From a virus, in IMG/VR virus record IMGVR_UViG_3300029319_000433, positions 1 to 26,065 of that record: DNA of 26,065 nt; one strand, given 5' to 3'. Shown here one piece after another: positions 7,086 to 26,065 of this stretch; position 1 is the stretch's first letter, and each line of letters begins with the position of its first letter. Made by a program: the position numbers and the translations under genes. Under the pieces are notes generated by a model, which was not told the DNA's origin, ran no database searches, and was given only the letters and a program-made list of their open reading frames with translations.

Positions 7086-7310
7086 TCATTTATCCATAAT
7101 ATTTCGAAGAAGAGTTTTAATCTCATCCATATCCTGTTTTAGGGAGTCCAAATCACTACGCATATTATCAAATTTCTTTTTCTCGTCGTGTTTTTTTCGA
7201 GAAAGTTCCATAAATTTATCAAATTCACTTTGATTTTTATTAATAATAGCTTTTGAGTCTACATCTCTTACCAAAGATTTGTCAGATTCAACTTTTAGGT
7301 ACTTTTCCAT
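7086..7310 (-). CDS. Small coiled-coil protein, 74 residues
   Basis: No family was recognised. The N-terminal third (MEKYLKVESDKSLVRDVDSK) is mixed in composition. Residues 28-72 are highly charged and helical, with a heptad-like pattern from about 45 (KKFDNMRSDLDSLKQDMDEI, then KTLLRNIMDK), so a short parallel coiled coil is likely. The ATG overlaps the stop of the 2,465-residue gene by one base (TAATG), implying translational coupling and a role with that protein, for example as a clip or assembly helper. That role is inferred from position. The next gene follows a promoter-bearing gap, so this gene is probably the last one of its transcript. Confidence 0.75.
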   Translation of the reverse strand: MEKYLKVESDKSLVRDVDSKAIINKNQSEFDKFMELSRKKHDEKKKFDNMRSDLDSLKQDMDEIKTLLRNIMDK

Positions 7311-10300
7311 TATTCAATCTCAAATGATCTAAGTGCAATAGATCTAAAGTTTTTGATTCTAGGTGGTTTTGCCTGATTTGTTGAAGTCATTACAACTTTT
7401 ATCATGAAAGAGTTAAATTGTGGTGTATTTTCCGCAGTAAATTTATATTCACTGAAAATATCTCTTTCCGCATTTGGATTTACAGTTTTATCTGGAAGAC
7501 CATTTGTATTAAATGGTATGTATGTAGCATTAGAATCATCACCATCACTTCTCATTAACTTATAGAATACTCTAATATCTCCCTCTGCTTCTCTATGACC
7601 ATCAAATTGTACAAGTAATGAGTTAGATACGAATTCTAAATCAATCATTTTTGTTTCATATATTGCAGTGTTAGGGTCAGAACCAGGAATTTTTGGTCTA
7701 CTATCAGTTACAAAATTTGAAACCTTATCATCAACAAGATTACTTACAGCAATTATATTTGGGTTCTCTAGATTAATAACTGGAGAAACATCAGAATCAT
7801 CAGTTACAAGTGTAAGTTCAAGAGCAAATGATTTTTGATTACTGAGTATCTCATATTCATTTGTTTTTGATGCTATTATTCTAGGATTATCAAGATAATT
7901 TAACTTGTTTAATGATATTGGTTCATATCCTCTATCATCAAAGGATGCCTCATTACCACTTAAACTAGTTCCAGAAGTTGTTTTAATTCTTGCTGATATA
8001 TTTGTTCCTGTTGGTGTAATTGATGTAATCTGTGGATTAATTGCTTCAAATGGAATGTTTTGTGAAACATGAACAGCATCTCCACCTCCAAATTTAGTTG
8101 TATTAAATGCAGGTTCTGTTGATGCAGTAGAAACTTTTACTAGATAACTATCAAAAGTTTTTTCTCTAGGATCAATATCATGTACTTTGTTAATTTTTCT
8201 TAGAGATACCCCATTAAATTCATATTTAAATACCTGAACATCTGCAGCATGATTTGATATCAAACTAGAATCAATTCCTCTTACTATTCCTGTTAAATTA
8301 TTTCCAGAAACACCTGTATATGCTAGTATTTCCTTATCTATTAAAACAAAACCAGGGAATGAAGAACTAACTGTTTTTCCTTCAAATGTTGCAAAACTAG
8401 TTCCAGACACTACAGTTATTTGAGTACTATCACCATCAATTTTTTGTGATAGTGGTGATGGAGCTCCATCAGGATGAAAATTAGCAACTCTTAGTTTGTT
8501 AGTGCTAGAGTGCATTCCATGATTCTTATGATCAAATTTTAAAGTATAACCATCTCTTATTGAATCTGGTGTAACTGAAGTTATATTGGAATTAGGTATA
8601 TTTGTTGAAGTTCCACCTTGAGTAAAATGAACTATGTCTGCACTTGATTCAAATTTACTATCGACATTATCTACTATGATTACATCTGTTCCACCAATTC
8701 CAGCATGAGATGTTACTACAGCTTGAACACCAGATCCAGTTGCACCAAGTGAATTTACTAATAATAAATCACCAGGAGCATATCCAGAACCTCCAGTTGT
8801 AATGGTTACTCCAGTACCAGTAATCGTTTTATTTTCTACAAAAACATTTGCAACAGCACCACTACCATTACCTGTTAAACTTGTAAATGTAGTGCCATTA
8901 TACTGCCCATCTGTTAATCCAATACCAGTATTTGATACTATGGTTAATTTATTAGCTCCTGTTGCTAATGGGCCTCCAGTTTTAAATACTCTTCCTGTAT
9001 GTCCACCTGTTTGTTGCATTTCATCATTTGGTGTAATAACTGTTGTGATTGGAGTTCCTAATTTAACACTAACTCTTTTTGAAAATCCAACAACTGGGTT
9101 TGATTTTCTTATTCTACCAAGAGGTAATTCACTATTATAAAGTAGAACACTTGAAGGTGTATCAGTTATAAATTGTGCCCTGTTAAGAGTAAATTTTAAA
9201 TCTTCATATTGACTTGCAGTCCAAGTTCTATTATTTTGTGACTTGAATAGTGAACCAAGGAATGGTTGTTCAGCATTTAATCCTTGTGTGATTAAATCTG
9301 GTTCACCCATTCTGTTAATAAAGTGATTATATTTTTCTGTAAAGAATGCTATTAAAACTATACAATACTCAGTTCCAGCCTGTAAGAATACTGGAGTATC
9401 AAATCTAAATGGAGTTGGAACACTTCCATCATCAGATAAATTTATATCCTCTACATTTATTTTAGTTTCTCCAAAAGGAACAACTGTTAGAGTTGGTATT
9501 CCATCTCTCATGGTTCTTATTTGGATGGTAACAGGAATTGTATCATCTTTTGATTTGAAGAATAGTTCACCACTAGTGATGAATACACCTGTCTCATGAT
9601 TCGCCTCATCAACATAGAATGATTGTGCTAGTGGATCTCCACCTCCCCCTCTTCTACCTCTTCTGTTTCTTCTACCTCTCCTTCTTCTCGTTACTCGTGT
9701 TGCAACATCTCTTTCTGTTGTTGTTTCTGTTCTATCTCTAGTAAACTCTCTGGTTACAGCAGTGGTTGCAGTCTCTCGTCTCTCTACGATTGGTGCTTTA
9801 ATTGATAATGTTTGTTCTTGAGTATTTGTTTGATATCCACTTGCTAAATATTCAGATTCTGCAGAACTTCCGCCAGGATCTAAAATAGCATCATTAGTAG
9901 GACTTGTTGTTACTCTAACTGTATTATTGCCAGTTGAGAATAAAGGATTTCCTTGAATTTTTGGATCTGGAATATGAAGTGAGAAAATTAAATCTCCCAT
10001 ATCATCACTGAATAATTGTACTTGTCCAACGGTGCACTCAGCAGTTCCTGTAGAGTTTACAAGTTTTGTTCCTGTTCTGATCCATCCTATGTGATCTACA
10101 CTATTTTGCAATCCCAAATCTTTTGTATCAACATTTAAAATTTGACTTGTGCTTGAATATGCAGTTGTTGCTTCTATATTGGGGAATGGGAAAGTTGTAA
10201 AAACTTCGCTTGGATCACTATGAGGGCCTGTTTTATGATTAGGACTCGCTACTCTGAATTTGATACTTGCATCTCCAGAAACTTCTTCATTTGAACTCTC

Positions 10301-13300
10301 AACAACATCATTAACTGAGAAACTTCCTCTGTTCATTGTGATTGGAATAAACTTAGGAACTGCATACTTAGTTAAATCTGTATTTTCCATGAATACGTAG
10401 TATCTTGTATTTGGTTTTAGTCTTTTAGCAAATACTTCAACATTTCTAGATCTTACATTATAAACAACATTAACTCCTACAACTTTAGTTCCTAAATCAA
10501 CTACTTCTTCACCTACAGATAATTCTAAACCAAAATCTCTTCGTGTACCAGATTCACTAAATGTTTGTCTTATAGTATTTTGAACGTCGCTGACAGTCGT
10601 TGTTGTAGTTATAGTGTTTCCTCCTCTTCTGCTTGTAGTTGTTCCTCTTCTAGAACCTGTAACTTGCCTGCGAATATTTCTTTCACCTACTAAAGTTGCA
10701 CTATCTCTACCATTCCAAGTAGTTTCAGATGAATTCCAGAAACTAGATGCCATACCACCATTTTCACGATCTTCAACTCCTAGTAAATCAGCAATTCCGT
10801 TGAATACTGAGTCAATTTCTAAAGTTTGTGGAGTTAAAGGAATTTCTTCAATCCAATAATCTGAATTGGGAGTTAGTTCAATTGTTCCAACAAAAACATC
10901 AACCATGTATGGATTTAAATTCTCCACTCTAGTTGCATGCATTTGATCTACAAAAATTGTTTCAGTATAATCAAGAGTTAAAGCTGCTCCACCTCTGGTA
11001 ATATTAGAATCTGGAAAATCTTTAACAACACTATAATCAGATGTAGATGGACTTGCAAGTGTGCTTACTGTTTCAAATACTAATCCTACATTTCTTTCAG
11101 TTGATCTTGGTCTGCATTCACTATTTTCAATATCAATATCAAATTTAGACTCACCTTTTAAGTTATGAGATTCATGATTTCTAAAATTATCGACAAAGAA
11201 ACCTGATTTAAATTTATCTAATCCAGTATTTGGATCTTTTACTGATAAATTTTTAGTGTCAGTTTCAAGTAAAGATAAAGTAGTATAATTTTCTAAATTT
11301 TTAATTCTATCCTCAAGACTACCAATATCCCTCATCGTGTATCGTCTGTGAGGGGTTTTTTTAATTAAAACCTCAGATGAAGCATCTCGAATATAAGGTG
11401 GTAAACTTATTGTTGCAACTTGAAAAGCATCCTCATTTGGTAGTGGTGCAGTTGGAAGTCTAGATGGATTTCCTTCTTTTACAGAAAACAAACCTTCTTT
11501 AGTTAAATATAACCTATCAATTCTTCCTTCATAATAAGAATAATCAATAACTACTGTTTTACCAGAAACAACGTTATCAGAATTTGATGCACTAAAATTT
11601 CTAGATGCGTTTGAAAATGGTGAAATAGTAGAACCTGTTCTGTTATAATTTCCAACTCTTGGTCTAAAATCAAGATAATCTGAAGCCCAACTATCAAAGA
11701 CGTATGGTATGTCTTTAGAGTAATTTAAAGTATTATAACTATTAACTGTTTCAACATTTCCTGATACTTCATTATTAACAAGGTGATCATATATTATTCT
11801 TAATTGGCGAGTTGGTTTTTCTACATCAGGTTTTCTTATAAGTCTACCATAGTCTACAAATTCATCTCTCTGTCCACTATCTAAATCATAATTTTTAAGT
11901 ATGTTTCTATCTCCAGGTGCTATGCCAGTTATTGTAGCAGTTATCCCAGAGGTCTTCAGAGATATGCTTTCTCCAACTTGGAACTTATTCTCGTTTTCAT
12001 AAACAAAAGACAACTGAGTCGCTTGTACTACCACTACACGAGCAACTGCACCTGATATTGATCCAATAAATTGTTCTCCAACAACCACATTATTTGTAAA
12101 ACTTGAACTTTGGTTTGTTACTCCAATTAATGGTAAATCTGGAGCATTATTATCATTAGATTCAAATACAGCCAAAACACGAGTTACCTCTGGGACATCT
12201 AATGATAAATCTTTATCTTGAACTCTTGTTCCATAAATTGTGCTTGTGGTTAATCCATCTACAGTTGTTCCAGAACCAACTGATTCTGATCTATCTACAA
12301 TTAAATTACTGCATCTTGTGAGTGATTTTTCTTTTGATACTAATTTACTTCTTTTAATTGCTACTGTGAGTTTTGCAGTTCTATTAGAAGCTGTCCCAGA
12401 TAAACCAGTAATTACAACTTGTTTTAATCCAGTATCCACAGTTACCATTGGATCTAAAAGTCTTATTGGTTCTTTATCAACTTCTAGAACATAGTTTAAT
12501 GCGGTAAATGGTTCAAAGAAAAGATTAGAAGTGTCACCAGTTGTGATGTCACTAATATTAAATGTGACTGAATTGTTTTGAAAAGTTTTACTTATGTTTT
12601 TTCTAATAATATATGAACTGTCTAAGACATTAGCAGATGCGACATAATCATCTTTTAATCTAATTCTAAATCCAGGATCATCTGTTTCATTTAAAGTTGG
12701 AATTACAACATTCAAACCAGATATTGTAGAATTATTTACGCTACCATCACAAACATCAGTTACATCTGCAACTGCTGCAAGAGTTACAGTATCTTGAACT
12801 ACATTTGTTACTTTATTAAACGTAGGAACTTCTTGTCCTGATGTTCCATATGTAATAATATCACCAATTTTTACCTGACTTCTAAAATCAGCAACTTGAG
12901 GAGACTTTAATGTATTGCCACCACTTATAGTAAATTCAATACTTTCAGGAAATGCTTTTTTTGTGGTACTTAAAACTGTATTTGCAGCAAATGTTGTACT
13001 ACCAGTTCCCAACCCATCAAAACTATGAACTGCTTTTATATCTTCAAAAGTGTTATCTTCTATCTCAGTTATATTGTTACCTTCAGTTATACCATTAATT
13101 ATTAATGGTTCATTAAGTTGAAATTGTCCTGTAACATCAGAAAGAACGAGCACAGTTGTTCCTGTTACTGTAGATACTGAGTATCCGACTGCACCACTAT
13201 ATTTTCCTTCTACACGAGTATATGAACCATAAGTTAACCCAGCTGGAACATCAATAGTTTTTGTAATCGTAAGACGTGTATAAAGTTGAACATCGTAAAG

Positions 13301-14707
13301 TGATATACTATAAGTCGTTGCTGCTATTCCAGATGAAGATTTTTGTTTATAATCATATACTTTTGCAGTTCCTACTCTATCATCTACATCAAATGCTCCA
13401 ACACTAGCAGCTTTTAGATTGGTTAATCGATTACGTATAAAAGAAACTTGTTTAGTTGTATTACTTGAAAAGTCAATATTTGGTGAACCAACTACATTAG
13501 TAACATCTACGGTCTTACCCATTCTGATTGGAACACTTTGATTTTCGACTAATTTAGTTGTTCTTGGTTTTAGTAAGTCTATTGATGAAGTTGAAAGTTT
13601 ATCGATCTCATATCCTCTTACAAAAGCCTTTCCTGAAGATAATTGTAAACTAATTAAATCATCTGATGGTGTATTCCCGTTTTGGGTTACTTGTGTATCT
13701 AAATATATTCCTCTGTTACCAATCCTGTCATTTAGAGACTCTCTTGCATCTATTGAAAATGGTCTGACATAATAATCACCAGATTCATCATAAGTTCTTC
13801 TTGCCAACTCATCTGCAAGAATATTATAATCTGTTCTTGTTACAAATTCTTTAGTATCACCATCTTCAATCCTCATTAACTCAATAAAATCACTATCATC
13901 GGTGTCAGATAAAAGTTTTTTATGTAAACTTACTGATAATTTAAACCTATCTGCACCAGGTGCTGTTTCGTTAGCAAAACCTTTTGCATTATCATATAAA
14001 TCAGAGTTTACTGATGATGGCCCTATAGTTTCTTCACTTAATAAAAATCCGACCCTATAACTAGGAGCATTTGTATATTGATCTAATATTATTGTTGATG
14101 CTAAATTTTTTACAAAATAACCACGAATAAAATATATACCCTCACTTACAGAAAAAGCACACCCAGTCGCAGTTGAATCTGAAACTATACAACCAGCAAA
14201 AAGACTATCTGCTGCTATGCTTGTGTTTAGATAGTTTATGTTTGAACGAGTTATTAAATTTTCACCATCTAAAAAAGTACCAGTTGTACCGTCTGTTCCT
14301 GATTTTGTATACTTAACATAAAGTGTATCAAAACCATCAATTGATTCTGAAGATGTTAATCTATTAACTACTGTTGCCTCTACTCCTGATGTTTCTCCTT
14401 TAATTTTAATTTTATTATCTGCTAAAACTTTTGTATAGTTACTAACTGGAATATTTAAAAAACTAGGATTTATTTTTACTGAATTATACTCAGAGTCATA
14501 TGAAGTTCCACCAGGAATCACCATAGAACCTTCTTTAAAGAAATGTTGACCAAATTTTTCAATTTGATTCTGTAATATTGATTGTAATGTGGTTAATTCT
14601 CTTGCTTGTACTGGAAATCCTGGTTTGAATAAGACTTTTTGATAGTTTTTGCTATCTACAAAGTCATCAAAATAAGGAGAAACGTTTAGATTGGTATTTT
14701 GTGGCAT
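7310..14707 (-). CDS. Giant baseplate-associated structural protein (DUF4815 type), 2,465 residues
   Basis: The N-terminus, with LNVSPYFDDF (7-16), VLFKPGFPVQARELTTLQSI (25-44) and FGQHFFKEGSMVIPGG, is the opening of a large phage structural family labelled DUF4815. Later landmarks are SLEDRIKNLENYTTLSLLE (about residues 1127-1145), VEVFAKRLKPNTRYYVF, and DPLAQSFYVDEANHETGVF just after residue 1690. Two arginine/threonine-rich linkers lie near residues 1349-1363 and 1640-1690. The C-terminal third carries a GGSGYAPGD module, an IDKEILAYTGVSG...VRG module and an H-rich NHGMH segment shared in style with the giant upstream protein. The gene begins 4 bases after gp8 and ends overlapping a small coiled-coil gene. 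It occupies the position of T4 genes 9/10, so a baseplate-wedge or fibre-connector role is inferred. It is far larger than T4 gp10 (602). Confidence 0.87.
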   Translation of the reverse strand: MPQNTNLNVSPYFDDFVDSKNYQKVLFKPGFPVQARELTTLQSILQNQIEKFGQHFFKEGSMVIPGGTSYDSEYNSVKINPSFLNIPVSNYTKVLADNKIKIKGETSGVEATVVNRLTSSESIDGFDTLYVKYTKSGTDGTTGTFLDGENLITRSNINYLNTSIAADSLFAGCIVSDSTATGCAFSVSEGIYFIRGYFVKNLASTIILDQYTNAPSYRVGFLLSEETIGPSSVNSDLYDNAKGFANETAPGADRFKLSVSLHKKLLSDTDDSDFIELMRIEDGDTKEFVTRTDYNILADELARRTYDESGDYYVRPFSIDARESLNDRIGNRGIYLDTQVTQNGNTPSDDLISLQLSSGKAFVRGYEIDKLSTSSIDLLKPRTTKLVENQSVPIRMGKTVDVTNVVGSPNIDFSSNTTKQVSFIRNRLTNLKAASVGAFDVDDRVGTAKVYDYKQKSSSGIAATTYSISLYDVQLYTRLTITKTIDVPAGLTYGSYTRVEGKYSGAVGYSVSTVTGTTVLVLSDVTGQFQLNEPLIINGITEGNNITEIEDNTFEDIKAVHSFDGLGTGSTTFAANTVLSTTKKAFPESIEFTISGGNTLKSPQVADFRSQVKIGDIITYGTSGQEVPTFNKVTNVVQDTVTLAAVADVTDVCDGSVNNSTISGLNVVIPTLNETDDPGFRIRLKDDYVASANVLDSSYIIRKNISKTFQNNSVTFNISDITTGDTSNLFFEPFTALNYVLEVDKEPIRLLDPMVTVDTGLKQVVITGLSGTASNRTAKLTVAIKRSKLVSKEKSLTRCSNLIVDRSESVGSGTTVDGLTTSTIYGTRVQDKDLSLDVPEVTRVLAVFESNDNNAPDLPLIGVTNQSSSFTNNVVVGEQFIGSISGAVARVVVVQATQLSFVYENENKFQVGESISLKTSGITATITGIAPGDRNILKNYDLDSGQRDEFVDYGRLIRKPDVEKPTRQLRIIYDHLVNNEVSGNVETVNSYNTLNYSKDIPYVFDSWASDYLDFRPRVGNYNRTGSTISPFSNASRNFSASNSDNVVSGKTVVIDYSYYEGRIDRLYLTKEGLFSVKEGNPSRLPTAPLPNEDAFQVATISLPPYIRDASSEVLIKKTPHRRYTMRDIGSLEDRIKNLENYTTLSLLETDTKNLSVKDPNTGLDKFKSGFFVDNFRNHESHNLKGESKFDIDIENSECRPRSTERNVGLVFETVSTLASPSTSDYSVVKDFPDSNITRGGAALTLDYTETIFVDQMHATRVENLNPYMVDVFVGTIELTPNSDYWIEEIPLTPQTLEIDSVFNGIADLLGVEDRENGGMASSFWNSSETTWNGRDSATLVGERNIRRQVTGSRRGTTTSRRGGNTITTTTTVSDVQNTIRQTFSESGTRRDFGLELSVGEEVVDLGTKVVGVNVVYNVRSRNVEVFAKRLKPNTRYYVFMENTDLTKYAVPKFIPITMNRGSFSVNDVVESSNEEVSGDASIKFRVASPNHKTGPHSDPSEVFTTFPFPNIEATTAYSSTSQILNVDTKDLGLQNSVDHIGWIRTGTKLVNSTGTAECTVGQVQLFSDDMGDLIFSLHIPDPKIQGNPLFSTGNNTVRVTTSPTNDAILDPGGSSAESEYLASGYQTNTQEQTLSIKAPIVERRETATTAVTREFTRDRTETTTERDVATRVTRRRRGRRNRRGRRGGGGDPLAQSFYVDEANHETGVFITSGELFFKSKDDTIPVTIQIRTMRDGIPTLTVVPFGETKINVEDINLSDDGSVPTPFRFDTPVFLQAGTEYCIVLIAFFTEKYNHFINRMGEPDLITQGLNAEQPFLGSLFKSQNNRTWTASQYEDLKFTLNRAQFITDTPSSVLLYNSELPLGRIRKSNPVVGFSKRVSVKLGTPITTVITPNDEMQQTGGHTGRVFKTGGPLATGANKLTIVSNTGIGLTDGQYNGTTFTSLTGNGSGAVANVFVENKTITGTGVTITTGGSGYAPGDLLLVNSLGATGSGVQAVVTSHAGIGGTDVIIVDNVDSKFESSADIVHFTQGGTSTNIPNSNITSVTPDSIRDGYTLKFDHKNHGMHSSTNKLRVANFHPDGAPSPLSQKIDGDSTQITVVSGTSFATFEGKTVSSSFPGFVLIDKEILAYTGVSGNNLTGIVRGIDSSLISNHAADVQVFKYEFNGVSLRKINKVHDIDPREKTFDSYLVKVSTASTEPAFNTTKFGGGDAVHVSQNIPFEAINPQITSITPTGTNISARIKTTSGTSLSGNEASFDDRGYEPISLNKLNYLDNPRIIASKTNEYEILSNQKSFALELTLVTDDSDVSPVINLENPNIIAVSNLVDDKVSNFVTDSRPKIPGSDPNTAIYETKMIDLEFVSNSLLVQFDGHREAEGDIRVFYKLMRSDGDDSNATYIPFNTNGLPDKTVNPNAERDIFSEYKFTAENTPQFNSFMIKVVMTSTNQAKPPRIKNFRSIALRSFEIE
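9637..9700 (-). repeat. Purine-rich tract encoding an Arg/Gly segment
   Basis: On the coding strand this stretch is nearly all purine and encodes TRRRRGRRNRRGRRGGGG (about residues 1672-1689 of the DUF4815 protein), with every arginine written AGA or AGG. It follows a threonine/glutamate/arginine-rich linker and precedes the conserved DPLAQSFYV segment, so it marks a domain boundary. Confidence 0.75.
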
Positions 14708-14711
14708 CTTT

Positions 14712-16337
14712 TTAGAACTCTATAACTATTTTTACCTCTTCCTTTTGTGAGGCTGTTCTGGTCACTGGTGCTCGATTATCTATGTATATAATATCACCAG
14801 AGTATTTTTTTACATCTGGATTTGCTTTTCCAGAACTAAAAGTTTGACTTAGAGCAATATTTTGCCCACCATCACCTTGTATCGATTCACCGTTAAAATC
14901 ACTATTAACGATTAAATTACCAGGAGATCCACCAGTAATTGGATTAGTGTTTACTCCAACAAAATCAAGTTTTTTGTATGAGTATTGTCCAAGTGTTGAA
15001 AAACCAACTGGTTGATAATATTTTAAAACACCAGTATCTGGATTCCAAGAAGCGACATAAGCAACTGCAGTTGAACCAACTCCTACTGTTTGTGTAATCA
15101 AAGTATTTACTGGATATGTAACCGATGAAGTTGTAGAAACTCCAGAGGTAGGGCCTACTTTTAACTGTAATGCACTCAAATTAGTTGCAGTCGTACTATT
15201 TAGAAGGGTAGTTCCATTAAATTCTAAAGGATTTCTGACTATTCCTACACGAGAAAAATTATTACCAACAACATAATCTGGAAGATCATCTACATTATTA
15301 TCAAATTTTGCATACATCATTACTCTAAATCCACCTAATTCACGATATATGTCTGCACCATGTCCACCTTTAGGTGGTATTACAACTTCAAATTGTGGTA
15401 CATCTTCAGCACTTTGTGGGATTCCAAGTGTGACGGGTTGACCACTACCATCTACATAAGTATCAGTTATAAATTTTAGTGATCCATAGGTATATCCTGT
15501 TCCACCTGCACTTGGTGTAACTGAAGTTACTTTACCATTACTAATAACGACAGTTGCTTCTCCTCCAGTTCCATCTCCACTAATTCGTATTCCTGAAATT
15601 GTTCCAGAGTCTGTAGTACCAACACCAACTCCAGCACCCTCTTTTTTTAGAACTATTGTTTGAACTTCTCCATCAACAGCAGCATTTTTAATATTTTCGT
15701 TTGTAGCATCTCCCCATTTTTGAGGTAATGGTATGTATTTTGTTGTTACGAATTTTACAATATCTGATGGTGATATGGTGTATAGATATTTCCATATGTA
15801 TCCGTCAGTTCCACCAGATGGTTGAGGTGAAGTATTTGTATGAACTGGTTCAGTTGTTGATTTTTGCCCTTCTGGATTATCTGGGTTTACTCCATTGTTA
15901 ATACAAAGATAAACTCTAAATTCTGATGTTACTACGTAATAAGTTGATCCGTATAAAGTTGTAGATCTAGTTTGAGGTGTTAAATTTTTATTAACATATG
16001 AATTATCTCCTGAATAATTATTTCGATACATGTCATATATTGTTCCTGATTGCCAATTTATTCTTGGAACAACTCTTCGAACATCATCTGCAGTTACTTT
16101 TTTTAAAAATAACATACTATCATAGTAAAAATTCTCTTGAGCAAAGGAATCCACAGGATTTGGAATAGCAGCACCCCAACCAGAAAATCCGTAATTTTTA
16201 ACGTCTGTATTTCTAGGATTTGGATGTGCTAAAAAAGCATAATAGTTATTTTTTCCAGTTGTGCCAATACCTACAAAACTATCTACAAAAGTTTCTGCGT
16301 TTAATATACGATATTGGTCAGTGATTATTGCGGGCAT
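14712..16337 (-). CDS. gp8: Baseplate wedge protein gp8, enlarged
   Basis: gp8 is a dimeric baseplate wedge subunit. Conserved blocks align with T4 gp8: GGTDGYIWKYLYTISPSD (175-192) with GDGYVWEYLFEIPPDV; TTKYIPLP (198-205) with TNEYIVVP; GIVRNPLEF (365-373) with SIITNPLEA; and the C-terminus YSGDIIYIDNRAPV (512-525) plus EEVKIVIEF with T4 HSGEMIYMENRPPI and EEINILFTF. Length is 541 residues against 334 in T4. Extra sequence lies at about 225-320 (a GGTGYTYG module and GVGVGTT peptides) and 374-505 (a GSTAVAYVASWNPDTGVLKY module). The N-terminus also carries FVGIGTTGKN (21-30). The gene follows a 53-base gap with a perfect late promoter and runs into the DUF4815 gene after 4 bases. The ribosome-binding site is weak. 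Confidence 0.94.
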   Translation of the reverse strand: MPAIITDQYRILNAETFVDSFVGIGTTGKNNYYAFLAHPNPRNTDVKNYGFSGWGAAIPNPVDSFAQENFYYDSMLFLKKVTADDVRRVVPRINWQSGTIYDMYRNNYSGDNSYVNKNLTPQTRSTTLYGSTYYVVTSEFRVYLCINNGVNPDNPEGQKSTTEPVHTNTSPQPSGGTDGYIWKYLYTISPSDIVKFVTTKYIPLPQKWGDATNENIKNAAVDGEVQTIVLKKEGAGVGVGTTDSGTISGIRISGDGTGGEATVVISNGKVTSVTPSAGGTGYTYGSLKFITDTYVDGSGQPVTLGIPQSAEDVPQFEVVIPPKGGHGADIYRELGGFRVMMYAKFDNNVDDLPDYVVGNNFSRVGIVRNPLEFNGTTLLNSTTATNLSALQLKVGPTSGVSTTSSVTYPVNTLITQTVGVGSTAVAYVASWNPDTGVLKYYQPVGFSTLGQYSYKKLDFVGVNTNPITGGSPGNLIVNSDFNGESIQGDGGQNIALSQTFSSGKANPDVKKYSGDIIYIDNRAPVTRTASQKEEVKIVIEF

Positions 16338-16357
16338 TGATACTTACATTTTTTGAT

Positions 16358-16365
16358 TATTTATA
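16358..16365 (-). promoter_or_regulatory. Late promoter (TATAAATA) before gp8
   Basis: A perfect T4-type late promoter element lies on the minus strand in the widest intergenic gap of the window (16338-16390), 20 bases before the gp8 ATG. It would start a transcript covering gp8, the 2,465-residue protein and the 74-residue protein. The gap shows two AAAAACCA stretches but no GC-rich hairpin, so no terminator for the upstream gene is called. Confidence 0.82.
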
Positions 16366-16390
16366 CTGGTTTTTATGGTGGTTTTTTTCA

Positions 16391-19300
16391 TCATGTTTCT
16401 GTACCATTAGGTTGATCATAAAAAGTCCTTAATTCTTCAGTTCTTATTACTTGAGCCGAAGTTTCAATTCCAAGTAAACCATTTTGGTTATGGAAAGTAA
16501 ATGGTCTACCATTTTTTCTAGTACCCCTAACAGATCCCCAACTATAAGTTCCAAATTTAAAGTTATCACTTAGAGTTGTCGTATCGATACCTGCTATTGA
16601 ATCCACATTTGCAAAAACCCTTAAAACAGAAGAACCGACTGATACATAATGTTCAGCAAAATAGACACCATTTAAGAAACTATTTCCAACTCCAACTGTT
16701 TCAGGGCCAGATGATGTTGTTTTTATTCCAGTAACTCCATCTCCAATAAAGGTGTTATCAATTACAAAGTAATCACCAGTAGTAATTCCAGAAATTGATC
16801 TATAGAACTTTTTATCTCCAGCAGGTAATCCATCATCTTTGTATATTCCTAAATTTTTGTAAAAATAATCTTGTATGTCATCAGGGTTTGGTTTGATTTC
16901 AAAGAATAATGCAGGTTTAGTTGTGTTAATACCAACAGCACTTGTTCCAATTCCAACTATGATTCCATAATCTCCTTCATATGTGCAATCTTCAAGTGTG
17001 TCAACGACAGCTGTTTCTCCTAAACCAACTATGTTTACTTTCTGGAATGCATCACCTAAAGGATCAACCCTTTTAAACATCCATGAATCTTTAATATAAA
17101 TTTTATTGTCATTTGGTAAAATAGATTTTATAATTCCAGATGTTGGGAATATTTGTGGTTCTAGATAATTTCTTTCTTTTGACATCATCACGCCATCGAC
17201 AACCAAGTCATCTACTTGTTTTCTCCAAACTACTGGACGAATAAAATTCTCATCGGTTGATATTCCAACTCCAGCATAAGTTGTTGTTTCTACCGTATCT
17301 GACGCTATTAATTCATATATTACTCTGTTATCTTGTTCTGTTTTTCTGTCAAGTGGTACTACTATTTCAGTTCTAATTTTAGAATCTTTTTTGATGCTTA
17401 TATCTACAGTCAAGTCTGATCCATTACCACCAGCACATGTTTTAATTCCAGCTGAATAAAGAGATCCAGTTGATATAATTGAAAAAGATTTGACTTGACC
17501 TGAAATTTCATCTACATCCGTAGAAACTTCAGTTACTTTTAATTTAGCAAATTCATTTTCATTATTTGATCCACCTAATATGGTAATAGTATCACCAATA
17601 TCATATCCTTGGCCAGGATTTTGAATAGACACTGTATCAATTGTATAGTGTGCTGTAGTTACAATTCCAGAATTAACATTATTATTACTATAATATTGTA
17701 ATCTGAGTTCATCACCTGGTTTTATTGTTTCATCAACATCGACATTTTTAAAGTCTTGATTTGATCCAGTGTAAAGATATAGTTTAATAGAACTACCAAA
17801 TTTAGGAGCCTCAGTAAAGGTAATTCTTGTTCCACCATTGAATTCGTAATCAATACCTGGTCTTTGTAAGATATCATTAATGAATATTAAAAGGTTATTT
17901 TGTAAAATAACTCCTGATCCTTCTTGAGCAACTATACTGTAGTATTCTTTATTTCCTTCCGTACGAGTTATTAAGAAAGATTTTCTAAATCCATTGAATT
18001 GTGAATCAAAATTATCAAGTTCTTTCAGTTGTCCAAAACACCAACCTGCAAATTTATCTTGAAATTTATTTTTAACTATGATATTAAAAGCACTTGTTCC
18101 AATACCAACTTGGAAAGGTAAAGTTGTTAGTTCTAATTTGTCTCCTATTTCATAACCAATACCACGATTTGATATATCAAAAGATAAAATGCTACCACCA
18201 GTTCCCACTACAACATCCATAGCAGCACCAGAACCACTTCCTCCAGAAAGAGGTATGTCGTTATATGGACTTGGTGGTGCAACTGTTACGAAATTAATTC
18301 CAGTTGAAATTCCACCTTGAGCATAACCTGTTCCAGGATTTGTAACTACAACAGATGTAACCACACCAGCAGTAACAAATGCAGAAATTGCTGCACCTAC
18401 ACCAGTTGTCGAACTAATTGATACTAATGGATTAGATAAGTATCCTGCACCTCCACTTGATATACCGACAGACGCAATTGTTCCACCTGCAGATACAACC
18501 GCAGTAAATATTGCTTTTCTAGGAACTTGATATCCACTTCCAATTCCAACATCAAATTCATTAATAATTCCACCATTAGGAAGATTTCCAAGAGAAGCTG
18601 TTCCTGTAAAATCAATAGTTTGACCAGTTCCAACAAGCTCATAATCATTGTCACTAGATTGACCAATATCCCCAAAGTAAGGTTTTTGGAATACATTATT
18701 AATTAAAAATGCACCATGACTGCCATTTATATTAGATACATCAACACCATTTGATGTCATACTAAACTCACCCGTAGATCCATCAAATTTATCTGATATA
18801 TCGTCAATAATTCTATTAGTATCGTAACTTAATCTGTAAAATGCTCTACCTGAAAATGTAGAGTGGGTAGTTATACCAGCTGGATTACTTGGATTTTGTG
18901 GATCAGGAACTCCTCTTGGCCCATATGGTGCCTCTGAAAAATAAATTCTCCCTTCATTCAGTCTATAATCACCTCTAAGAACTGTTACTGCTGCTCCAAC
19001 TGCATGTGCAGATGCAACAGTTCCCATTTGACCTCTTACGACATTTAGAGTGGTAGTTCCAACACCAACAGTTGATACTTTAATTATTTCATCTTCTATT
19101 TTTAATAATGACTTACCAGATATTTCTGAAGTATCATTTAAAAATACAATGGTAGTTGATATTCCAACACTAGTTGATAGTCCAACAGATATTATTGTTG
19201 TAATACCTACAGGACTTTGAATTACATTATCTATTGTAATTAAAGATCTAACAGTAGCATCTTCTGATGGAACAGAAAGACTATTAGTATTTGCTATTCC

Positions 19301-22300
19301 TACTACATTAGTAAATGATACTGCAGCTCCAATAGATGCAAAAGTAGCAGAAATAGCAACTTTAATATTATCTCCATCTTCTCTAATTGCAAAGACAGTT
19401 GATGGAAGTAACGTTGTTGCAGCAACACCAGCATTAGTATCTGATGTATTAGCAATTCCAATAGACGACTGACCAGCATGTGGTTTGTATATTAATTCTT
19501 CACCAGTATTAAAATTATGTTTTGGTATATTCACTATGTGAGTTTCAGTTGATACTCCCGTAGATGGATTAAACTCTCTATGAAATAGTGAATTACCGTC
19601 GGCAAAAACATTAAAACTTGTTGTTCCAATAACACCTCCACCAGTAGTAGTTACTATTCCAGTAAATTGAGAACTTATATCATCTATTAAAAATACTTTA
19701 TTAGTTCTAGATTCATTATAATCTGTTATGATTTTAGATTTAAATACAATTAAATTAGATGAGTCTGGATCTTCAGTATCCTCATTAGCTAAATCATAAT
19801 AAAATCTATCATGAACTGATGCTTCTTCAGTAATATCGATTTCTAATTCAAGATCAGATTCAGATTTCAATACATGTTGTGCTGTAGATCCAATTCCTAA
19901 ATTGCAGAAATTTTTAAATCCTGCAATATGATCCAAACTACCAACAGATTCCTTCCACGTATCGTATGGAACATCACCCTTTACTGAGTATGAAAATCTT
20001 TGATAATAATCATTATCATGTACTCTTTGAATATCTAAATTTAATTTTCCTGTGTCTGTTTTCCAGCTATTGTTAAGTCTGGATGCACTATCAACATTTA
20101 AATCAAAATCAAATTTAAATTGTTCTCTTACTGTACCTTTATTATTACTTATGGTTCCTGTAATTTTATCTTCTTTTTCAAAATCACCCACGGTGCTAAA
20201 AACCTTTAAAGTCTCGGATATTGGATCCCAACCATTCTTAGCAACTATTCCAGAAACATTTTTACCATCTACCCTTACAATTTCATCATCAAAAAATCTC
20301 GTTTCTTTAAATATTGGTGAAAATCCTGCCAAGTCTCTTTTTCTTATGACTCTACCAAAATTGTTTTGAGTCTGATATGTTCCTGGATTTGTACTAAATC
20401 CGACGAATGAATAACTAATAGATTCTTGTCCACCAGTAACATCACGATCAGTAACAGTAAAGTATTGATAATTATAGTCACTCGAATTATATCCATCACC
20501 ATTACCAATAATTCTTACATTTTCTACAAATACTTCATCACCTATCTCAAATGGGAAACTTCCTCCTTGATTAAAGAAACCACTAGTATTTCCAGACTCT
20601 GGAAATGGAGCCCTTAATGATAGTTTGACAATTGAATTACTATCAATTTCAGCCTCAGTTACAAGAACCCCATTTGAATTTGTAACTGGCAAAATTCTAA
20701 TATCCTCAGATAATCCACTATCATTTGTTACTATTGAAACTGTGTCCACCGATGTTCCACTCAGTGTTGTTCTTGCAAGTATGTTTGGTTTACCAACAAC
20801 CAATACTCTTGGTGGACTTGTGTAATTGATACCTCCAGTTGTAATTCCTATACTGTCAAGGGTTAATACATTTTTTGTTTGAACTATTACGTTGCTGTTT
20901 GCTTTTGGTTTTAAAGTTTTATCTGGTGAAAATTCTAATCCTGGATTAATAACTTGAGTTCCTTCTATTCTTCCAATATCATCCGCATTTACAGTTAATA
21001 CTGAATTTACACCCTCACTAGTTCCTATCGATGTTATTATTGGTATTTCTCTAACTTGAGATCCTCGGTTTACAATTTCTATGGAATGTATTCCACCAAT
21101 CTCATTAATAGAAGATGTTGAGTAAAAAGACGATGATAATCCTGAAGATGTATATGAGGTTGTCTCAGCAAGTCTATCTGCATTAAATTTAAATGTGTTT
21201 GTTCCAACTCCTGTAACTCTAAATTCTTTATTAAACTTAGATTCAACTGTTACTATTTTTGAATAATTTGGAACTCTTTTATCTACAGCAAAAAATAGAG
21301 TTTTGGTTGAATTTCCATTTTTACCTTGAATTTTGTAGAAAAATTCAGACAGTAATGAATCATCTACTGATATTATAGTTTTGCCACTTGTTTTTGTAAT
21401 TAAACTACTACTATATTTTGATTTAAAGTTAATATCTTCATAAAATTCTAAATCAAAATCATTTAAACTTGAATCAGATGTTATGAGTTCAATTGTATTG
21501 TTTTTATAGAAAAATAATTTTGGATTTACCTTTGATATTTCATGATTTACTCCACCTGTAGTTCCTATTCCTATGTAATTATATGGAAATACTGATAAAT
21601 CATATGAATTTTCTGCTAGTCTTATAGTGTCTCTAGAATCTTTAATAACATGATAAACACCATTATCAACCAAAGGAGTGGCTGGAGTTGATGAATTATA
21701 AACAATTAAATCTCCCGTTTCAAAATCATGATCACCAATTGTTATTGTTGATTGAGTTGTTCCAATTCCAATTGCTGAATCTGTAAATGATACTGGATTG
21801 ACAACTAATTTCCTAATCGATTCGTTATATTTTAAGTTGAAAGTCTGAGTTTGATTGGATGTGATATTTAACTTAAATTTATCATTTACTGATAATGCAT
21901 GTTGATTTCCTGTTGTATTTGCAGTAGCAACAGTTACAGTCCCATTAACTCTTCTTAAAGATCCAGAAATATTATTTGTTATCAATTCAATCTTATGATC
22001 ATCCTCATTATTCGTACCTCTTAAAATCTCTTTAAAATATACGTTTTCAGAATCAGTACTAATTCCAACAGTTCCTATACCTGTTCTTTCAGTTGCTAAT
22101 CCAATATAATCTGAACTAAATTTAGTACAAAAAAGTTTATCAAAAGTTGATAAATCAAATGCACTTGTTAAATTATCATTTTTTGTTGCATTTATAGTTG
22201 ATGCGACAGATACAATTCGTACTTCGTCTCCATTTTGAAATTTATGGTTTGGTAAATATATTGCCTTTGCAGGAATTGATTTGTAAATGGATGTTATTCC

Positions 22301-25300
22301 TACTTGTCCAACAATAACATTTGACACTGTTGTCCCAATTCCAACTGATTTTACACCTTCAAAATATTCAATTTGTGGTAATGCGATATTAACATTTTCT
22401 ATTTTTTTAGATACTGGATATGTAAATTTTGTTTCCAATCTAGAAACTAATGTTCCTGCATTATGAGTTCCAACATTTGAATCATTATATCCTCTTCTAA
22501 CTCTATGTTTATTATTGACATCATCGTAACCAAGTATTAAAAGTTGTTCATTTCCAATCTGAACAACATCATCAATTTTAAATTTTCTAGAAAGTGTAGG
22601 AGCGTAAAAACTAACAAAAGTAGTAAATCCTGTACTGTTTCCAAGTGCTTCGGATAGTCCAGAGGTTACTGTTGATACGCCAATAGTTCTTACTCCTTCT
22701 ATATTCTTATAAAGAGTTGATGATATTCCAGATATATCAACAACATCTCCCTCGAAAAGTCCGTGAGGAATTGTAGAAATTCCTGTTACTTGTCCATCAA
22801 TAATCGAAAATGTTAAGTTATTTACAATTGTATTTGTAGTTCCAATTGATACAATTTTTTTACCAATAACTTCGCTAACTTTGGCTGATATACTCTGGTT
22901 GTTAAAGTTTATTTTATCATTAACTTTGTATAAATTTCCAGGTTCATCTATGATAACATTTGTAATTTTAGATGCCTTAGTTCCATCAACTTCAATTAAT
23001 GCTTTTGAATTTAAAGAATCTTGTAAAATTGGATATCTTCTGTTTTCCTCGTTTAATCCTAGATGTGATACGTTTCTCTTATATTTTCCACTATTTAAAA
23101 TATCATCTTTTTGTTTTTCTTTTCCAGTTGCATAATTGAATAAATCTGTGGCATTTCTATGAGAGAATGTTATATATGGGAAACTTGGACTCTTAGATGT
23201 CTTATCTAAAGTAGAAAAATACGCATAAGTTCCATTTGGAAAATCTGCATTTGTTAAAAATTTTCCATTATGTTCATCTAAATCACCACTTTTTTTATAA
23301 ACATAATCATTTACAAAATATCCATTTTGGAAACCTGCAGGTCTCAAACCAGCATCACTAATAGCATCTATTTCATAACTAGATTCCATAAATGTTGTGA
23401 TCCCAGTAGTGTTAATACCAACTGGGCCATAAATTGGATTGCCATCATATGCCCATCCAACTATTTTTGAGTGTTCTTCTGTTAATTCTGTTAAACTGGT
23501 ATCAAGATTATCTCTAAGTATACGACGATATTTTTTAGGAGGATAAAAAGAACATATTTTATTATTATACTCTAAAGATTCTGAGTTTAATTGAATAATT
23601 TGTGAATTGTTTTCTGTGAGAACATGACTATATCTTTCAACAGAATTTATATTCCATTCTTTAATTTTTGGTGTTATGATGGAATTAGATCCAGAGGGTG
23701 TGATCCTTATAGTAGTATTATTAGGATCATATCCAGATCCTTTATCAATTATACTAACTTGAGTTATTTTTCCATTAGAAACTTCTGCTTTTAGTTTTGC
23801 ATAAGACCCCACTGTTGCTATTGTTCCACTAATGTCGATAACTTCTAAATCTGGTGGAGTAGTGTATTCAGAACCACCATTTGCAATAGTAATCCCTTCA
23901 ATTCTTCCTTCTACTATAATTGGAACTAAAAATGCATTTTTTCCAGTTAAAAATGTTGTTGCTGGTTGCTTTTGGTAGTTGATTATATCTGTTACACCAT
24001 AACCAACTCCACCATTTTTAATAAAAATACTCTTTAATCCACCCTTTACGATAACTGTGGCAGATGCTTTATAATAATCAGGTATAGAAATTGTTGAACC
24101 AACAGAAACTTCACCGTCAATTTGAATTGATATGTCTGGATACTTAAATGTATGAATTCCTGAACCTAAACTACTTAGTTTTGTATATATTTTTCTATCA
24201 TAATTAGTGCTTGAGATAGTTGTTGCAGTTCCTGCATTACTTAATCTAAATTTATCTTTATCAAGTACAATTACTTTATATGATATTGATGAGTCTAATC
24301 CACCAATTTGACTAGAACTAGTTGAATATTCAACTACATCACCATTTTTAAAATTATGATTTTTTGCAAAAATGTAATCATTAAAAATGTTTATACCACT
24401 AAAAGTTTTAAATAAGTCTTTTTCATCAGTAGGAGGATATTGTTGAGATAATACTTCTATTCTATGATTATCATAAGATGTACCAGAGTTATTTACGTTA
24501 ATTTTATCAATTATCTTTCTTATCTTTTTAGATTTAAATCCATGAGTTTGAGTACCATTATCAAAAAATTCCAACAAATTACTTTTACTAAGTGCTCTTT
24601 CTTCTGTAGTAGCTAAAGAAAAAGAATTATTATCGTATTTTGCAATAAAATATGAAGTTCCCGAAGATAGTAAAGTAGTGGTAAAACCAACATTTGTTTC
24701 ACCGACACCAATAGGAGTTCCAGTAGCGATATATGTAACTTCTTCACCATCATCAAATCTATGACTTCCAATTATTTTATTATCACCCAAATTTATATCA
24801 AACTCTGTATATGATTTACTATAGATAAATCCCTTCATCTTTGCTTCACATATTGCTCCAAATCCATTACCACCAGTTACTTTTACTGAAGGTGTTTTAA
24901 CGTAATTAAATCCTGGTTTGTCTAAAATAACTTCACTTAAAGAACCCGAAAAATTTGAAATTACTTGACAACCACTTCCAGTATCATCTGTAATTGATAA
25001 AGTTGGTGGATTAATAACATTGTAATTTTTACCAGAATTAGTTGTTTGCAACTCTTCTATTTGTCCGTAATAAATTGAATCATCAGAAATTGGTGAATGA
25101 AATTCAAGTCCATTTAGTGAGACTCCTATTGCCCCATTAATATTTGAATCTTCTTTTGCTATTTGTGGTTTTTTATAAATTCTCTTAAAATTATTTTGGT
25201 TTGCTAATTTAGCACCATCATACAAACTAGCAGGAGTTACAATATGAGATCCAGCCCCAACTCCGTCATATTTTATATTTTCAAATGAATTGTTGAGTAA

Positions 25301-26065
25301 ATTTGCATAGTTTGTAGATATTTTTATATTATTACTATCTACTACTTTAACATAGTAATATCCACTAGATCCATTAACAACTCCAGTTTCTGAGGTAATT
25401 CCCAAATAAATTTTTTCTCCATTTAAAAAATTATGATTTGGTATATTAATTGAATTTGCATTTGTACTAATACCAGAAGAGTTAAATGTTTTTGATCTAT
25501 TAGTTGTCTGAGTGTCAAATGATGGGTATCCTGAAAAAGCAACATAAGTATTTTTTTCTGAGTCTACAAACGTATTTTGAATATTTGAAAGTAATGATGT
25601 AATTCCAAAATTAGATGAAGCGTAATTTATATTCTTTTTAATTACATAATCACCAGATACAATTAGACCTGTTCCACCACCATCGATTAAAAAACTTTTA
25701 GTATCAATTATTTCTTTTACATTAGCACCTTGTCTAATTGGTACACCAGTTTCTTTGAATATAATATCAACTTTATCACCTATTTTTAAAAAATGATCAA
25801 CTGAAGTTGTAAAGGTATTATCATTAGCTGAATGTTCAAATGAATCAATATAAGATATATTATTATAAAACCAAGTATTTGATTTTTTATCGTTTATGTC
25901 GTATTTTTCGCCTAAATGATTAACTCTAATTAAATCTTTTAAATCAAAATACTTGGTAGATGAAATATTATCAGATGTACCTGTAACAGTTCCAGTAACT
26001 CTCATCGTACAAATTTTAGTTAAATCATTATCTTCGTAACCATAGACAAAATTTGCATCAACTAT
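16391..26065 (-). CDS. Giant modular virion protein with YHYH-type domain (5' end outside window)
   Basis: The reading frame has no stop before the right edge: the 20 codons before the first ATG (26005) are open and end DNDLTKICT, so that ATG is probably internal and at least 3,224 residues are present. Residues here count from 26065. Residues about 860-955 form a YHYH-type domain: HSKIVGWAYDGNPIYGP (from about 863), then LDEHNGKF and PNGTYAYF (motif variant YAYF at 23216-23227). About thirteen GxGY...P units, eight HxFxxGD units, two IGNEQ/IEDEI...RG...H units and three DDISxxF units fill much of the rest. FINDILQRPGIDYEF and FTEAPKFGSSIKLYLY (near 2710-2765) are phrases common in marine phage tail proteins. 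It lies directly upstream of gp8, where T4 has gene 7 (1,032 residues); whether it replaces gp7 is inference. Confidence 0.88.
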   Translation of the reverse strand: MVDANFVYGYEDNDLTKICTMRVTGTVTGTSDNISSTKYFDLKDLIRVNHLGEKYDINDKKSNTWFYNNISYIDSFEHSANDNTFTTSVDHFLKIGDKVDIIFKETGVPIRQGANVKEIIDTKSFLIDGGGTGLIVSGDYVIKKNINYASSNFGITSLLSNIQNTFVDSEKNTYVAFSGYPSFDTQTTNRSKTFNSSGISTNANSINIPNHNFLNGEKIYLGITSETGVVNGSSGYYYVKVVDSNNIKISTNYANLLNNSFENIKYDGVGAGSHIVTPASLYDGAKLANQNNFKRIYKKPQIAKEDSNINGAIGVSLNGLEFHSPISDDSIYYGQIEELQTTNSGKNYNVINPPTLSITDDTGSGCQVISNFSGSLSEVILDKPGFNYVKTPSVKVTGGNGFGAICEAKMKGFIYSKSYTEFDINLGDNKIIGSHRFDDGEEVTYIATGTPIGVGETNVGFTTTLLSSGTSYFIAKYDNNSFSLATTEERALSKSNLLEFFDNGTQTHGFKSKKIRKIIDKINVNNSGTSYDNHRIEVLSQQYPPTDEKDLFKTFSGINIFNDYIFAKNHNFKNGDVVEYSTSSSQIGGLDSSISYKVIVLDKDKFRLSNAGTATTISSTNYDRKIYTKLSSLGSGIHTFKYPDISIQIDGEVSVGSTISIPDYYKASATVIVKGGLKSIFIKNGGVGYGVTDIINYQKQPATTFLTGKNAFLVPIIVEGRIEGITIANGGSEYTTPPDLEVIDISGTIATVGSYAKLKAEVSNGKITQVSIIDKGSGYDPNNTTIRITPSGSNSIITPKIKEWNINSVERYSHVLTENNSQIIQLNSESLEYNNKICSFYPPKKYRRILRDNLDTSLTELTEEHSKIVGWAYDGNPIYGPVGINTTGITTFMESSYEIDAISDAGLRPAGFQNGYFVNDYVYKKSGDLDEHNGKFLTNADFPNGTYAYFSTLDKTSKSPSFPYITFSHRNATDLFNYATGKEKQKDDILNSGKYKRNVSHLGLNEENRRYPILQDSLNSKALIEVDGTKASKITNVIIDEPGNLYKVNDKINFNNQSISAKVSEVIGKKIVSIGTTNTIVNNLTFSIIDGQVTGISTIPHGLFEGDVVDISGISSTLYKNIEGVRTIGVSTVTSGLSEALGNSTGFTTFVSFYAPTLSRKFKIDDVVQIGNEQLLILGYDDVNNKHRVRRGYNDSNVGTHNAGTLVSRLETKFTYPVSKKIENVNIALPQIEYFEGVKSVGIGTTVSNVIVGQVGITSIYKSIPAKAIYLPNHKFQNGDEVRIVSVASTINATKNDNLTSAFDLSTFDKLFCTKFSSDYIGLATERTGIGTVGISTDSENVYFKEILRGTNNEDDHKIELITNNISGSLRRVNGTVTVATANTTGNQHALSVNDKFKLNITSNQTQTFNLKYNESIRKLVVNPVSFTDSAIGIGTTQSTITIGDHDFETGDLIVYNSSTPATPLVDNGVYHVIKDSRDTIRLAENSYDLSVFPYNYIGIGTTGGVNHEISKVNPKLFFYKNNTIELITSDSSLNDFDLEFYEDINFKSKYSSSLITKTSGKTIISVDDSLLSEFFYKIQGKNGNSTKTLFFAVDKRVPNYSKIVTVESKFNKEFRVTGVGTNTFKFNADRLAETTSYTSSGLSSSFYSTSSINEIGGIHSIEIVNRGSQVREIPIITSIGTSEGVNSVLTVNADDIGRIEGTQVINPGLEFSPDKTLKPKANSNVIVQTKNVLTLDSIGITTGGINYTSPPRVLVVGKPNILARTTLSGTSVDTVSIVTNDSGLSEDIRILPVTNSNGVLVTEAEIDSNSIVKLSLRAPFPESGNTSGFFNQGGSFPFEIGDEVFVENVRIIGNGDGYNSSDYNYQYFTVTDRDVTGGQESISYSFVGFSTNPGTYQTQNNFGRVIRKRDLAGFSPIFKETRFFDDEIVRVDGKNVSGIVAKNGWDPISETLKVFSTVGDFEKEDKITGTISNNKGTVREQFKFDFDLNVDSASRLNNSWKTDTGKLNLDIQRVHDNDYYQRFSYSVKGDVPYDTWKESVGSLDHIAGFKNFCNLGIGSTAQHVLKSESDLELEIDITEEASVHDRFYYDLANEDTEDPDSSNLIVFKSKIITDYNESRTNKVFLIDDISSQFTGIVTTTGGGVIGTTSFNVFADGNSLFHREFNPSTGVSTETHIVNIPKHNFNTGEELIYKPHAGQSSIGIANTSDTNAGVAATTLLPSTVFAIREDGDNIKVAISATFASIGAAVSFTNVVGIANTNSLSVPSEDATVRSLITIDNVIQSPVGITTIISVGLSTSVGISTTIVFLNDTSEISGKSLLKIEDEIIKVSTVGVGTTTLNVVRGQMGTVASAHAVGAAVTVLRGDYRLNEGRIYFSEAPYGPRGVPDPQNPSNPAGITTHSTFSGRAFYRLSYDTNRIIDDISDKFDGSTGEFSMTSNGVDVSNINGSHGAFLINNVFQKPYFGDIGQSSDNDYELVGTGQTIDFTGTASLGNLPNGGIINEFDVGIGSGYQVPRKAIFTAVVSAGGTIASVGISSGGAGYLSNPLVSISSTTGVGAAISAFVTAGVVTSVVVTNPGTGYAQGGISTGINFVTVAPPSPYNDIPLSGGSGSGAAMDVVVGTGGSILSFDISNRGIGYEIGDKLELTTLPFQVGIGTSAFNIIVKNKFQDKFAGWCFGQLKELDNFDSQFNGFRKSFLITRTEGNKEYYSIVAQEGSGVILQNNLLIFINDILQRPGIDYEFNGGTRITFTEAPKFGSSIKLYLYTGSNQDFKNVDVDETIKPGDELRLQYYSNNNVNSGIVTTAHYTIDTVSIQNPGQGYDIGDTITILGGSNNENEFAKLKVTEVSTDVDEISGQVKSFSIISTGSLYSAGIKTCAGGNGSDLTVDISIKKDSKIRTEIVVPLDRKTEQDNRVIYELIASDTVETTTYAGVGISTDENFIRPVVWRKQVDDLVVDGVMMSKERNYLEPQIFPTSGIIKSILPNDNKIYIKDSWMFKRVDPLGDAFQKVNIVGLGETAVVDTLEDCTYEGDYGIIVGIGTSAVGINTTKPALFFEIKPNPDDIQDYFYKNLGIYKDDGLPAGDKKFYRSISGITTGDYFVIDNTFIGDGVTGIKTTSSGPETVGVGNSFLNGVYFAEHYVSVGSSVLRVFANVDSIAGIDTTTLSDNFKFGTYSWGSVRGTRKNGRPFTFHNQNGLLGIETSAQVIRTEELRTFYDQPNGTET
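17400..18470 (-). repeat. C-terminal array of GxGY beta modules in the giant protein
   Basis: Five units can be seen in one kilobase: GGAGYLSNP, NPGTGYAQGG, NRGIGYEIGD, NPGQGYDIGD and a degenerate STGSLYSAG. Each is preceded by a V/I-rich strand. Between the third and fourth lies a DxFDSQFNG unit with FINDILQRPG. Repeats are at protein level only; the DNA is diverged. Confidence 0.7.
18590..18812 (-). repeat. DDISxxF module, best of three copies in the giant protein
   Basis: The segment reads IIDDISDKFDGSTGEFSM, then HGAFLINNVFQKP and TGQTIDFTG. Related copies lie at about 19640-19705 (FLIDDISSQFTG) and 17770-18030 (LDNFDSQFNGFRKSF with LLIFINDILQRPG). The three copies mark a repeated beta domain, diverged at DNA level. 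Confidence 0.65.
23695..24030 (-). repeat. Tandem GxGY beta modules in the N-terminal third of the giant protein
   Basis: Three units follow each other: IKNGGVGYGVTD, IANGGSEYTTPPDLEV and IDKGSGYDPNNTTI. They share the pattern hydrophobic strand, N/K-G-x-G/S-Y, then P or N and a second strand, with about 50 and 44 residues between them. The spacing is close to that of the gp14 insertion, which supports a common module. Confidence 0.7.

Follow-up and report, generated by a model that had tools for sequence, protein, structure and literature searches.

A giant gene between gp6 and gp8 of an uncultivated T4-superfamily marine phage very probably encodes gp7 with its core in two pieces

What protein is encoded by a gene that lies in the gp7 position among baseplate genes, runs off the end of its contig and is more than three times as long as T4 gp7? 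The gene occupies positions 16391..26065 (minus strand) of the window, by which we mean the whole stretch of DNA analysed, a complete IMG/VR record of 26,065 bases, and its start lies outside the contig. The frame is open up to the record edge, with 3,224 aa shown and no stop, confirming the giant open gene at the edge that a first-pass annotation had observed. That annotation had also doubted the ATG at 26005 as the start, put the protein at more than 3,200 residues and more than three times T4 gp7 and, seeing no clear gp7 core, offered two alternatives: a gp7 inflated by modules, or a different protein in the slot.

Scanning viral contigs with the giant protein yielded 30 loci, mostly 63-79% identical in the best segment, and the gene is complete in 17 close relatives (3,455-3,597 aa). 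The giant protein of these complete relatives starts MSDKKVKI(S/A)NILGSQIPDFIQADNP, directly after gp6 (~625-642 aa) where the contig includes it; the true start and gp6, which lie to the right of the window, were thus found through the relatives. Alignments with four relatives along the entire gene (65-73% identity to the window gene) all place window residue 1 opposite residue 383 of the relative, so that ~382 residues precede the edge. The full-length window protein is therefore predicted from these alignments to have about 3,606 aa, of which residues 383 to ~3,606 are shown. The ATG at 26005 codes for the 21st of these residues and is internal to the relatives' reading frame. Both the doubt about this ATG and the size estimate were well placed, and the relatives have no stop just past the position of 26065, their frame continuing upstream. 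We annotate the gene as an orthologue of gp7 that has lost its 5' end at the contig edge, based on the open frame, the complete relatives and phrog_2885 (see below). Since the contig comes from a metagenome and breaks off within the giant gene, its length might be suspected to be an assembly artefact, or the frame to be open by chance, but the same long frame recurs in at least 17 other contigs and in hundreds of phage records, and changes fall mostly at the third codon position. Indeed, nucleotide differences between the window and its relatives amount to 0.14-0.18 at codon position 2 versus 0.36-0.41 at position 3. The gene is therefore a conserved coding sequence under purifying selection, and an artefactual length is hardly conceivable.

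Read from right to left, the window holds the giant gene, gp8 and a VrlC/DUF4815 protein. The baseplate wedge subunit gp8 (14712..16337, minus strand; PF09215, 2e-14; phrog_438, 1e-147) lies directly downstream of the giant gene, as had been noted at first reading, and is followed by a separate gene for a VrlC-type wedge protein with DUF4815 (7310..14707, minus strand; PF16075, 4e-52; phrog_358). The order gp25-gp6-giant-gp8-VrlC is identical in relatives, and a relative's gp6 belongs to the same family as T4 gp6 (phrog_219). The giant gene thus occupies the gp6-gp8 position, with gp8 downstream in the window and gp6 directly upstream in relatives. In Pfam searches the giant protein has no match to DUF4815, the neighbour at 7310-14707 being the only one in the window. 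The VrlC/DUF4815 protein varies in size (2,465 aa in the window versus 2,001 aa in HTVC008M), and gp14 of the window phage (2586-4031) has 481 aa versus 256 aa in T4. In the window the two terminase genes, small and large, flank a 236-aa frame (MKSFKEFIKESS...; 383-1093), and a hypothetical protein occupies the corresponding position in DSL-LC03. In locus L031 giant gp7 and gp8 are separated by two extra genes (15005-16237 and 16210-17892), of which the first opens with a motif that resembles the N-terminus of T4 gp10 (GTGDSLLSGG); genes with such gp10-like N-termini also follow gp7 in Syn33 and S-SZBM1.

Is the giant protein gp7, or does it only hold its place? It matches the profile of phrog_2885, 'baseplate wedge subunit', in six stretches (373-2546 of 4179; E 0, 1805 bits), and a relative's N-terminus matches it at 2.7e-120. 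Many cyanophages annotate members of this family 'gp7, baseplate wedge initiator'. Since annotation can be positional, homology to T4 gp7 was tested separately, with the N-terminal core taken from relatives, since the window lacks the gene start. With T4 gp7 as query, blastp matched 20 of 20 complete giants at one and the same N-terminal place, T4 residues 729-758 aligning with the giants' ~205-234 or the equivalent (E 1e-5 to 0.01), although phmmer with T4 gp7 against the giants left nothing after the bias filter. HHalign of a profile of giant N-termini against 11 T4-type gp7s paired giant residues 203-321 with T4 727-828 (probability 96.8, E 2e-10). T4 gp7 was the sole match of the giant N-terminus among all PDB sequences (E 0.027), and tblastn with this N-terminus across 50,697 phage records reached the gp7 of Schizotequatrovirus (Vibrio phage; 1,165 aa, E 5e-4). 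Giants and T4-type gp7s are also linked in both directions by PHROGs 964, 17744 and 26741, bridging families included. The gp7 of Sinorhizobium phage phiM12 (1,007 aa), where the gene order is likewise gp25-gp6-gp7-gp8-VrlC, aligns from its own N-terminus with T4 639-832 (3.7e-9).

Structure prediction points the same way. An AF2 model of residues 1-410 of the relative L005 (pLDDT 77, pTM 0.43) had as its best two PDB matches the gp7 of a Klebsiella KP1-type phage (9f4a; Foldseek 5e-5, Z 9.7) and T4 gp7 (5iv5; 9e-5, Z 9.5), covering T4 638-843. The rmsd to T4 gp7 is ~15 Å over the whole match and domain placement differs; the weight of this model lies in gp7 being ranked first and in the order of elements being kept, not in domain placement. 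Fold matches confined to L005 residues 316-386 (beta barrels of EF-Tu and F1-ATPase) reflect a common small barrel and were set aside. Together, alignments and model show the N-terminal ~300 residues as a predicted gp7 core composed of helical hairpins, the DFYxxKGTxxSxxxLFxxLYGE helices and a beta domain like domain V of T4 gp7. The helical region and the helices that follow it (T4 ~640-758) are present in relatives and lie outside the window; domain V (T4 766-861) is covered in relatives by HHalign up to T4 828 and by the structural alignment up to T4 843. The Pfam model of domain V (PF21427) has no match in the giant, nor do domain VI (T4 920-1012; PF21456) and fn3.

A second candidate piece of the core lies far downstream, within the window (19658..20188, minus strand; shown residues 1960-2136), and bears the motif YYQxFSYxxKxxxPxxxWKxxVxxxxHxAGF. 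It matches phrog_17744 (3e-8), phrog_26741 (4e-7) and phrog_3465 (8e-4), and a region with the motif YYQxFSYxI...W...HxAGF is common to the gp7-slot proteins of HTVC008M (1,016 aa) and S-PM2 (3,048 aa). Both pieces occur in the same order in the small gp7-like families phrog_26741 (497 aa), phrog_17744 (765 aa) and PF23786 (284 aa), and Pfam assigns no family to the second piece by itself. An HMM of this piece built without T4 sequences matched all 11 T4-type gp7s, which are not independent of one another, at E 1e-5 to 8e-4 and within residues 822-1030 (~838-925 in most). The best E among 2,200 shuffled sequences was 0.004, and across 64 frames of the T4 tail region gp7 ranked first (E 0.002). 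HHalign of the second piece against T4-type gp7 gave E 0.0013 at a probability of only 18%. We conclude from these matches that the second piece is well supported within the branch, while its counterpart in T4 gp7, at ~838-925, is less certain. Growth by a purely C-terminal extension was ruled out, as matches of S-PM2 and HTVC008M to PF23786 and phrog_26741 place a core part far downstream. The first-pass remark that no clear gp7 core was visible can be explained: the first, better conserved half lies in the 382 residues beyond the edge, and the second half is in the window but too diverged for the eye. Likewise, the terminal comparison with T4 gp7 proposed at that stage succeeds for the N-terminus of relatives, at E 2e-10, and yields a weak match for the piece inside the window.

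It has been stated that T4 gp7 is absent from pelagimyophages and cyanomyophages, with VrlC as a substitute (PMC7029224), in which case a different protein would fill the slot. Overall similarity to T4 gp7 is indeed tiny, and phmmer with the visible 3,224 aa gave no match among PDB sequences. However, profile and structure matches place a gp7 core in the giant protein, VrlC is a separate gene after gp8, and phrog_964, the T4 gp7 family, finds no gp7 outside the giant gene. Searched against seven complete giant-gp7 or HTVC008M-type genomes, this family recognised the giant gene in five of them, gave nothing at all in S-PM2 and HTVC008M, and in none returned the separate gp7 gene that the first-pass annotation had envisaged. 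In HTVC008M and the cyanophages VrlC is separate and follows gp8, and the protein of the gp6-gp8 interval has the gp7 core, which argues against PMC7029224 on the absence of gp7. A different protein in the slot is thus highly improbable, and we hold it very probable that the giant gene is the gp7 of a T4-superfamily marine phage, with its core in the N-terminus and a second piece, and with modules added inside and after. Of the two alternatives first offered, the inflated gp7 is supported by the core matches, and the different protein is not.

How has the protein grown? T4 gp7 (1,032 aa; PDB 5IV5, 5HX2) shares the core in the same order (640-758, domain V, then probably ~838-925), with ~640 residues ahead of it and ~95 between the pieces. 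In the giant the core comes first, its two pieces are ~2,100 residues apart, and ~1,090 follow the second. The gap between the pieces is 281 residues in the 528-aa protein of a Rhizobium phage, 461 in HTVC008M, 754 in phiM12, 1,528 in S-PM2, ~2,080-2,110 in the window's relatives and 2,666 in Syn33 (6,376 aa), and the tail after the second piece is absent at one extreme of the series and exceeds 1,600 residues at the other. Growth has occurred at different points in the T4 lineage and the giant lineage. Because the 528-aa Rhizobium form has nothing ahead of the core or beyond the second piece, domain VI and the N-terminal domains of T4 gp7 are probably T4-lineage additions. In Syn33 (L046:12213 onward) and S-SZBM1 (L133:6215-26074; 6,619 aa), ~500 extra residues lie between the N-terminal hairpin and the DFYxxKGT helices, and the core is thus interrupted at a further point.

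The stretch between the core pieces of the window protein holds five HxFxxGD modules, two GYxxPP modules and one YHYH domain, all on the minus strand. The HxFxxGD modules, found by iterated HMM, lie at 25238..25438 (residues 210-276, E 7e-22), 24536..24766 (434-510, 7e-20), 24146..24361 (569-640, 2e-20), 22034..22249 (1273-1344, 6e-14) and 21536..21733 (1445-1510, 3e-23). The two GYxxPP modules share 24842..25042 (residues 342-370 and 379-408, E 2e-11 and 6e-15), and the YHYH domain, also found in L031 and S-PM2, lies at 23201..23482 (residues 862-955; PF14240, E 2.7e-18). Beyond the second core piece follow a sixth HxFxxGD module (19289..19522, minus strand; residues 2182-2259, E 8e-15) and, in the C-terminal extension, one GYxxPP module (18380..18463, minus strand; residues 2535-2562, E 4e-11). 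Two GYxxPP modules of the same family occur in gp14 of the window phage (aa 220-251 and 267-296, E 1e-12 and 1e-15). An AF2 model of the C-terminal 620 aa of the window protein (pLDDT 51) is too poor for a fold search and silent on whether its folds are known, and the C-terminal alignment leaves out four sequences as unreliable at 16-18% identity. Rather than growing by accretion of duplicated small modules, gp7 might have fused with further genes that once encoded wedge proteins, gp10 or gp11 for instance, which would explain the loss of full-length gp10 and gp11 as separate genes: in the seven complete giant-gp7 or HTVC008M-type genomes T4 gp11 was not found, nor full-length gp10, a 40-residue gp10-like N-terminus occurring in two. 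Yet the window protein shows the module families and YHYH only, with no match to a gp10 or gp11 family, and the gp10 N-terminal motif, where present, belongs to a separate gene after gp7 (Syn33, S-SZBM1). We give fusion a small chance only.

What might such a gp7 do in the baseplate? T4 and its relatives have six gp7 per tail, one per wedge, a strictly ordered wedge assembly, and a gp7-type core bundle and trifurcation formed with two gp6-type chains (PMC3004832, PMC10457771). In the 242-aa XM1 orthologue the bundle part is N-terminal, at residues 1-48 (PMC10457771), the same placing as the core of the giant. By analogy with the T4, pyocin and XM1 structures, the giant's core would start wedge assembly and, present once per wedge, would join two gp6 chains to form the wedge bundle, (gp6)2-gp7, and the trifurcation. 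The small beta modules, strung together within the core and behind it, may project from the wedge and form the periphery of the baseplate. In a single chain they could supply part of the structure for which T4 uses gp10 and gp11, and they may link the wedge to fibres or host-binding parts. Mass spectrometry detected S-SZBM1_208 (6,619 aa), which carries both core pieces, in virions, with 71 peptides and 13.5% coverage under one 724-kDa entry (PMC9146016). From its presence in virions, and from full-length gp10 and gp11 not being found, we infer that the added modules may form baseplate periphery. The protein might instead be a polyprotein, cut so that the virion holds a normal-sized gp7 and separate fragments; the better conserved core part does lie at one end with the remainder modular, and the ~390-kDa product of the window phage is a prediction from its gene. 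The S-SZBM1 peptides fall under a single 724-kDa entry, though peptides alone are compatible with cleavage, and the second core piece deep in the chain argues for one chain that folds back to the wedge. Cleavage has a slim chance at best. As a tentative proposal, possible though short of probable, we suggest that in the cyanophage and pelagiphage branch gp7 is a split-core scaffold, whose chain would leave the wedge core, run through ~2,100 residues of peripheral modules, return to complete the core and leave again, thus encoding much of the periphery and replacing the gp10-gp11 pins of T4.

Giant gp7s as such are already known, being annotated in cyanophages, with one homologue from purified virions. 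Cyanophage members of phrog_2885, 'gp7' or 'baseplate wedge initiator', reach 4,156 aa in S-SM2, 3,891 aa in S-8S56 and 4,107 aa in DSL-LC03; they resemble the window protein in gene order, N-terminal core, second piece and modules, with ~30% identity over most of the length, but differ in length and in some modules, and the window phage represents an uncultivated lineage. S-SZBM1_208 likewise has both core pieces and directly follows gp6, but is almost twice as long, its first core piece lying ~500 residues further in. The near-minimal 528-aa structural protein of Rhizobium phage RHph_I1_18 directly follows gp25 and gp6 and has both pieces, whereas it ends at the second. Pelagibacter phage HTVC008M I899_gp055 (1,016 aa; L128:33435-36485) shares the slot, the N-terminal core and the second core piece but carries the label 'head closure Hc2', which is apparently an error and perhaps stems from modules common with gp14. 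The name 'baseplate wedge initiator' is given in HTVC008M to gp059, gp062 and gp063, after VrlC. Divergence among non-cyanophage genomes was reported to split large structural proteins, gp7 among them, into several clusters (PMC3037559). No paper on cyanomyovirus baseplate structure was found in the literature searched, nor a description of the split-core anatomy, which may be new.

The identity of the giant open frame is thereby settled, gp7 is argued to be present in two marine phage groups, both among the most abundant, that had been reported to lack it, and a corrected name is suggested for HTVC008M I899_gp055. With lengths that run from 528 to 6,619 aa about a single small core, these proteins open baseplate growth to testing and, as the core fixes the contact of gp7 with gp6, the inserted stretch would be locatable by cryo-EM in any cultured cyanophage with a giant gp7.
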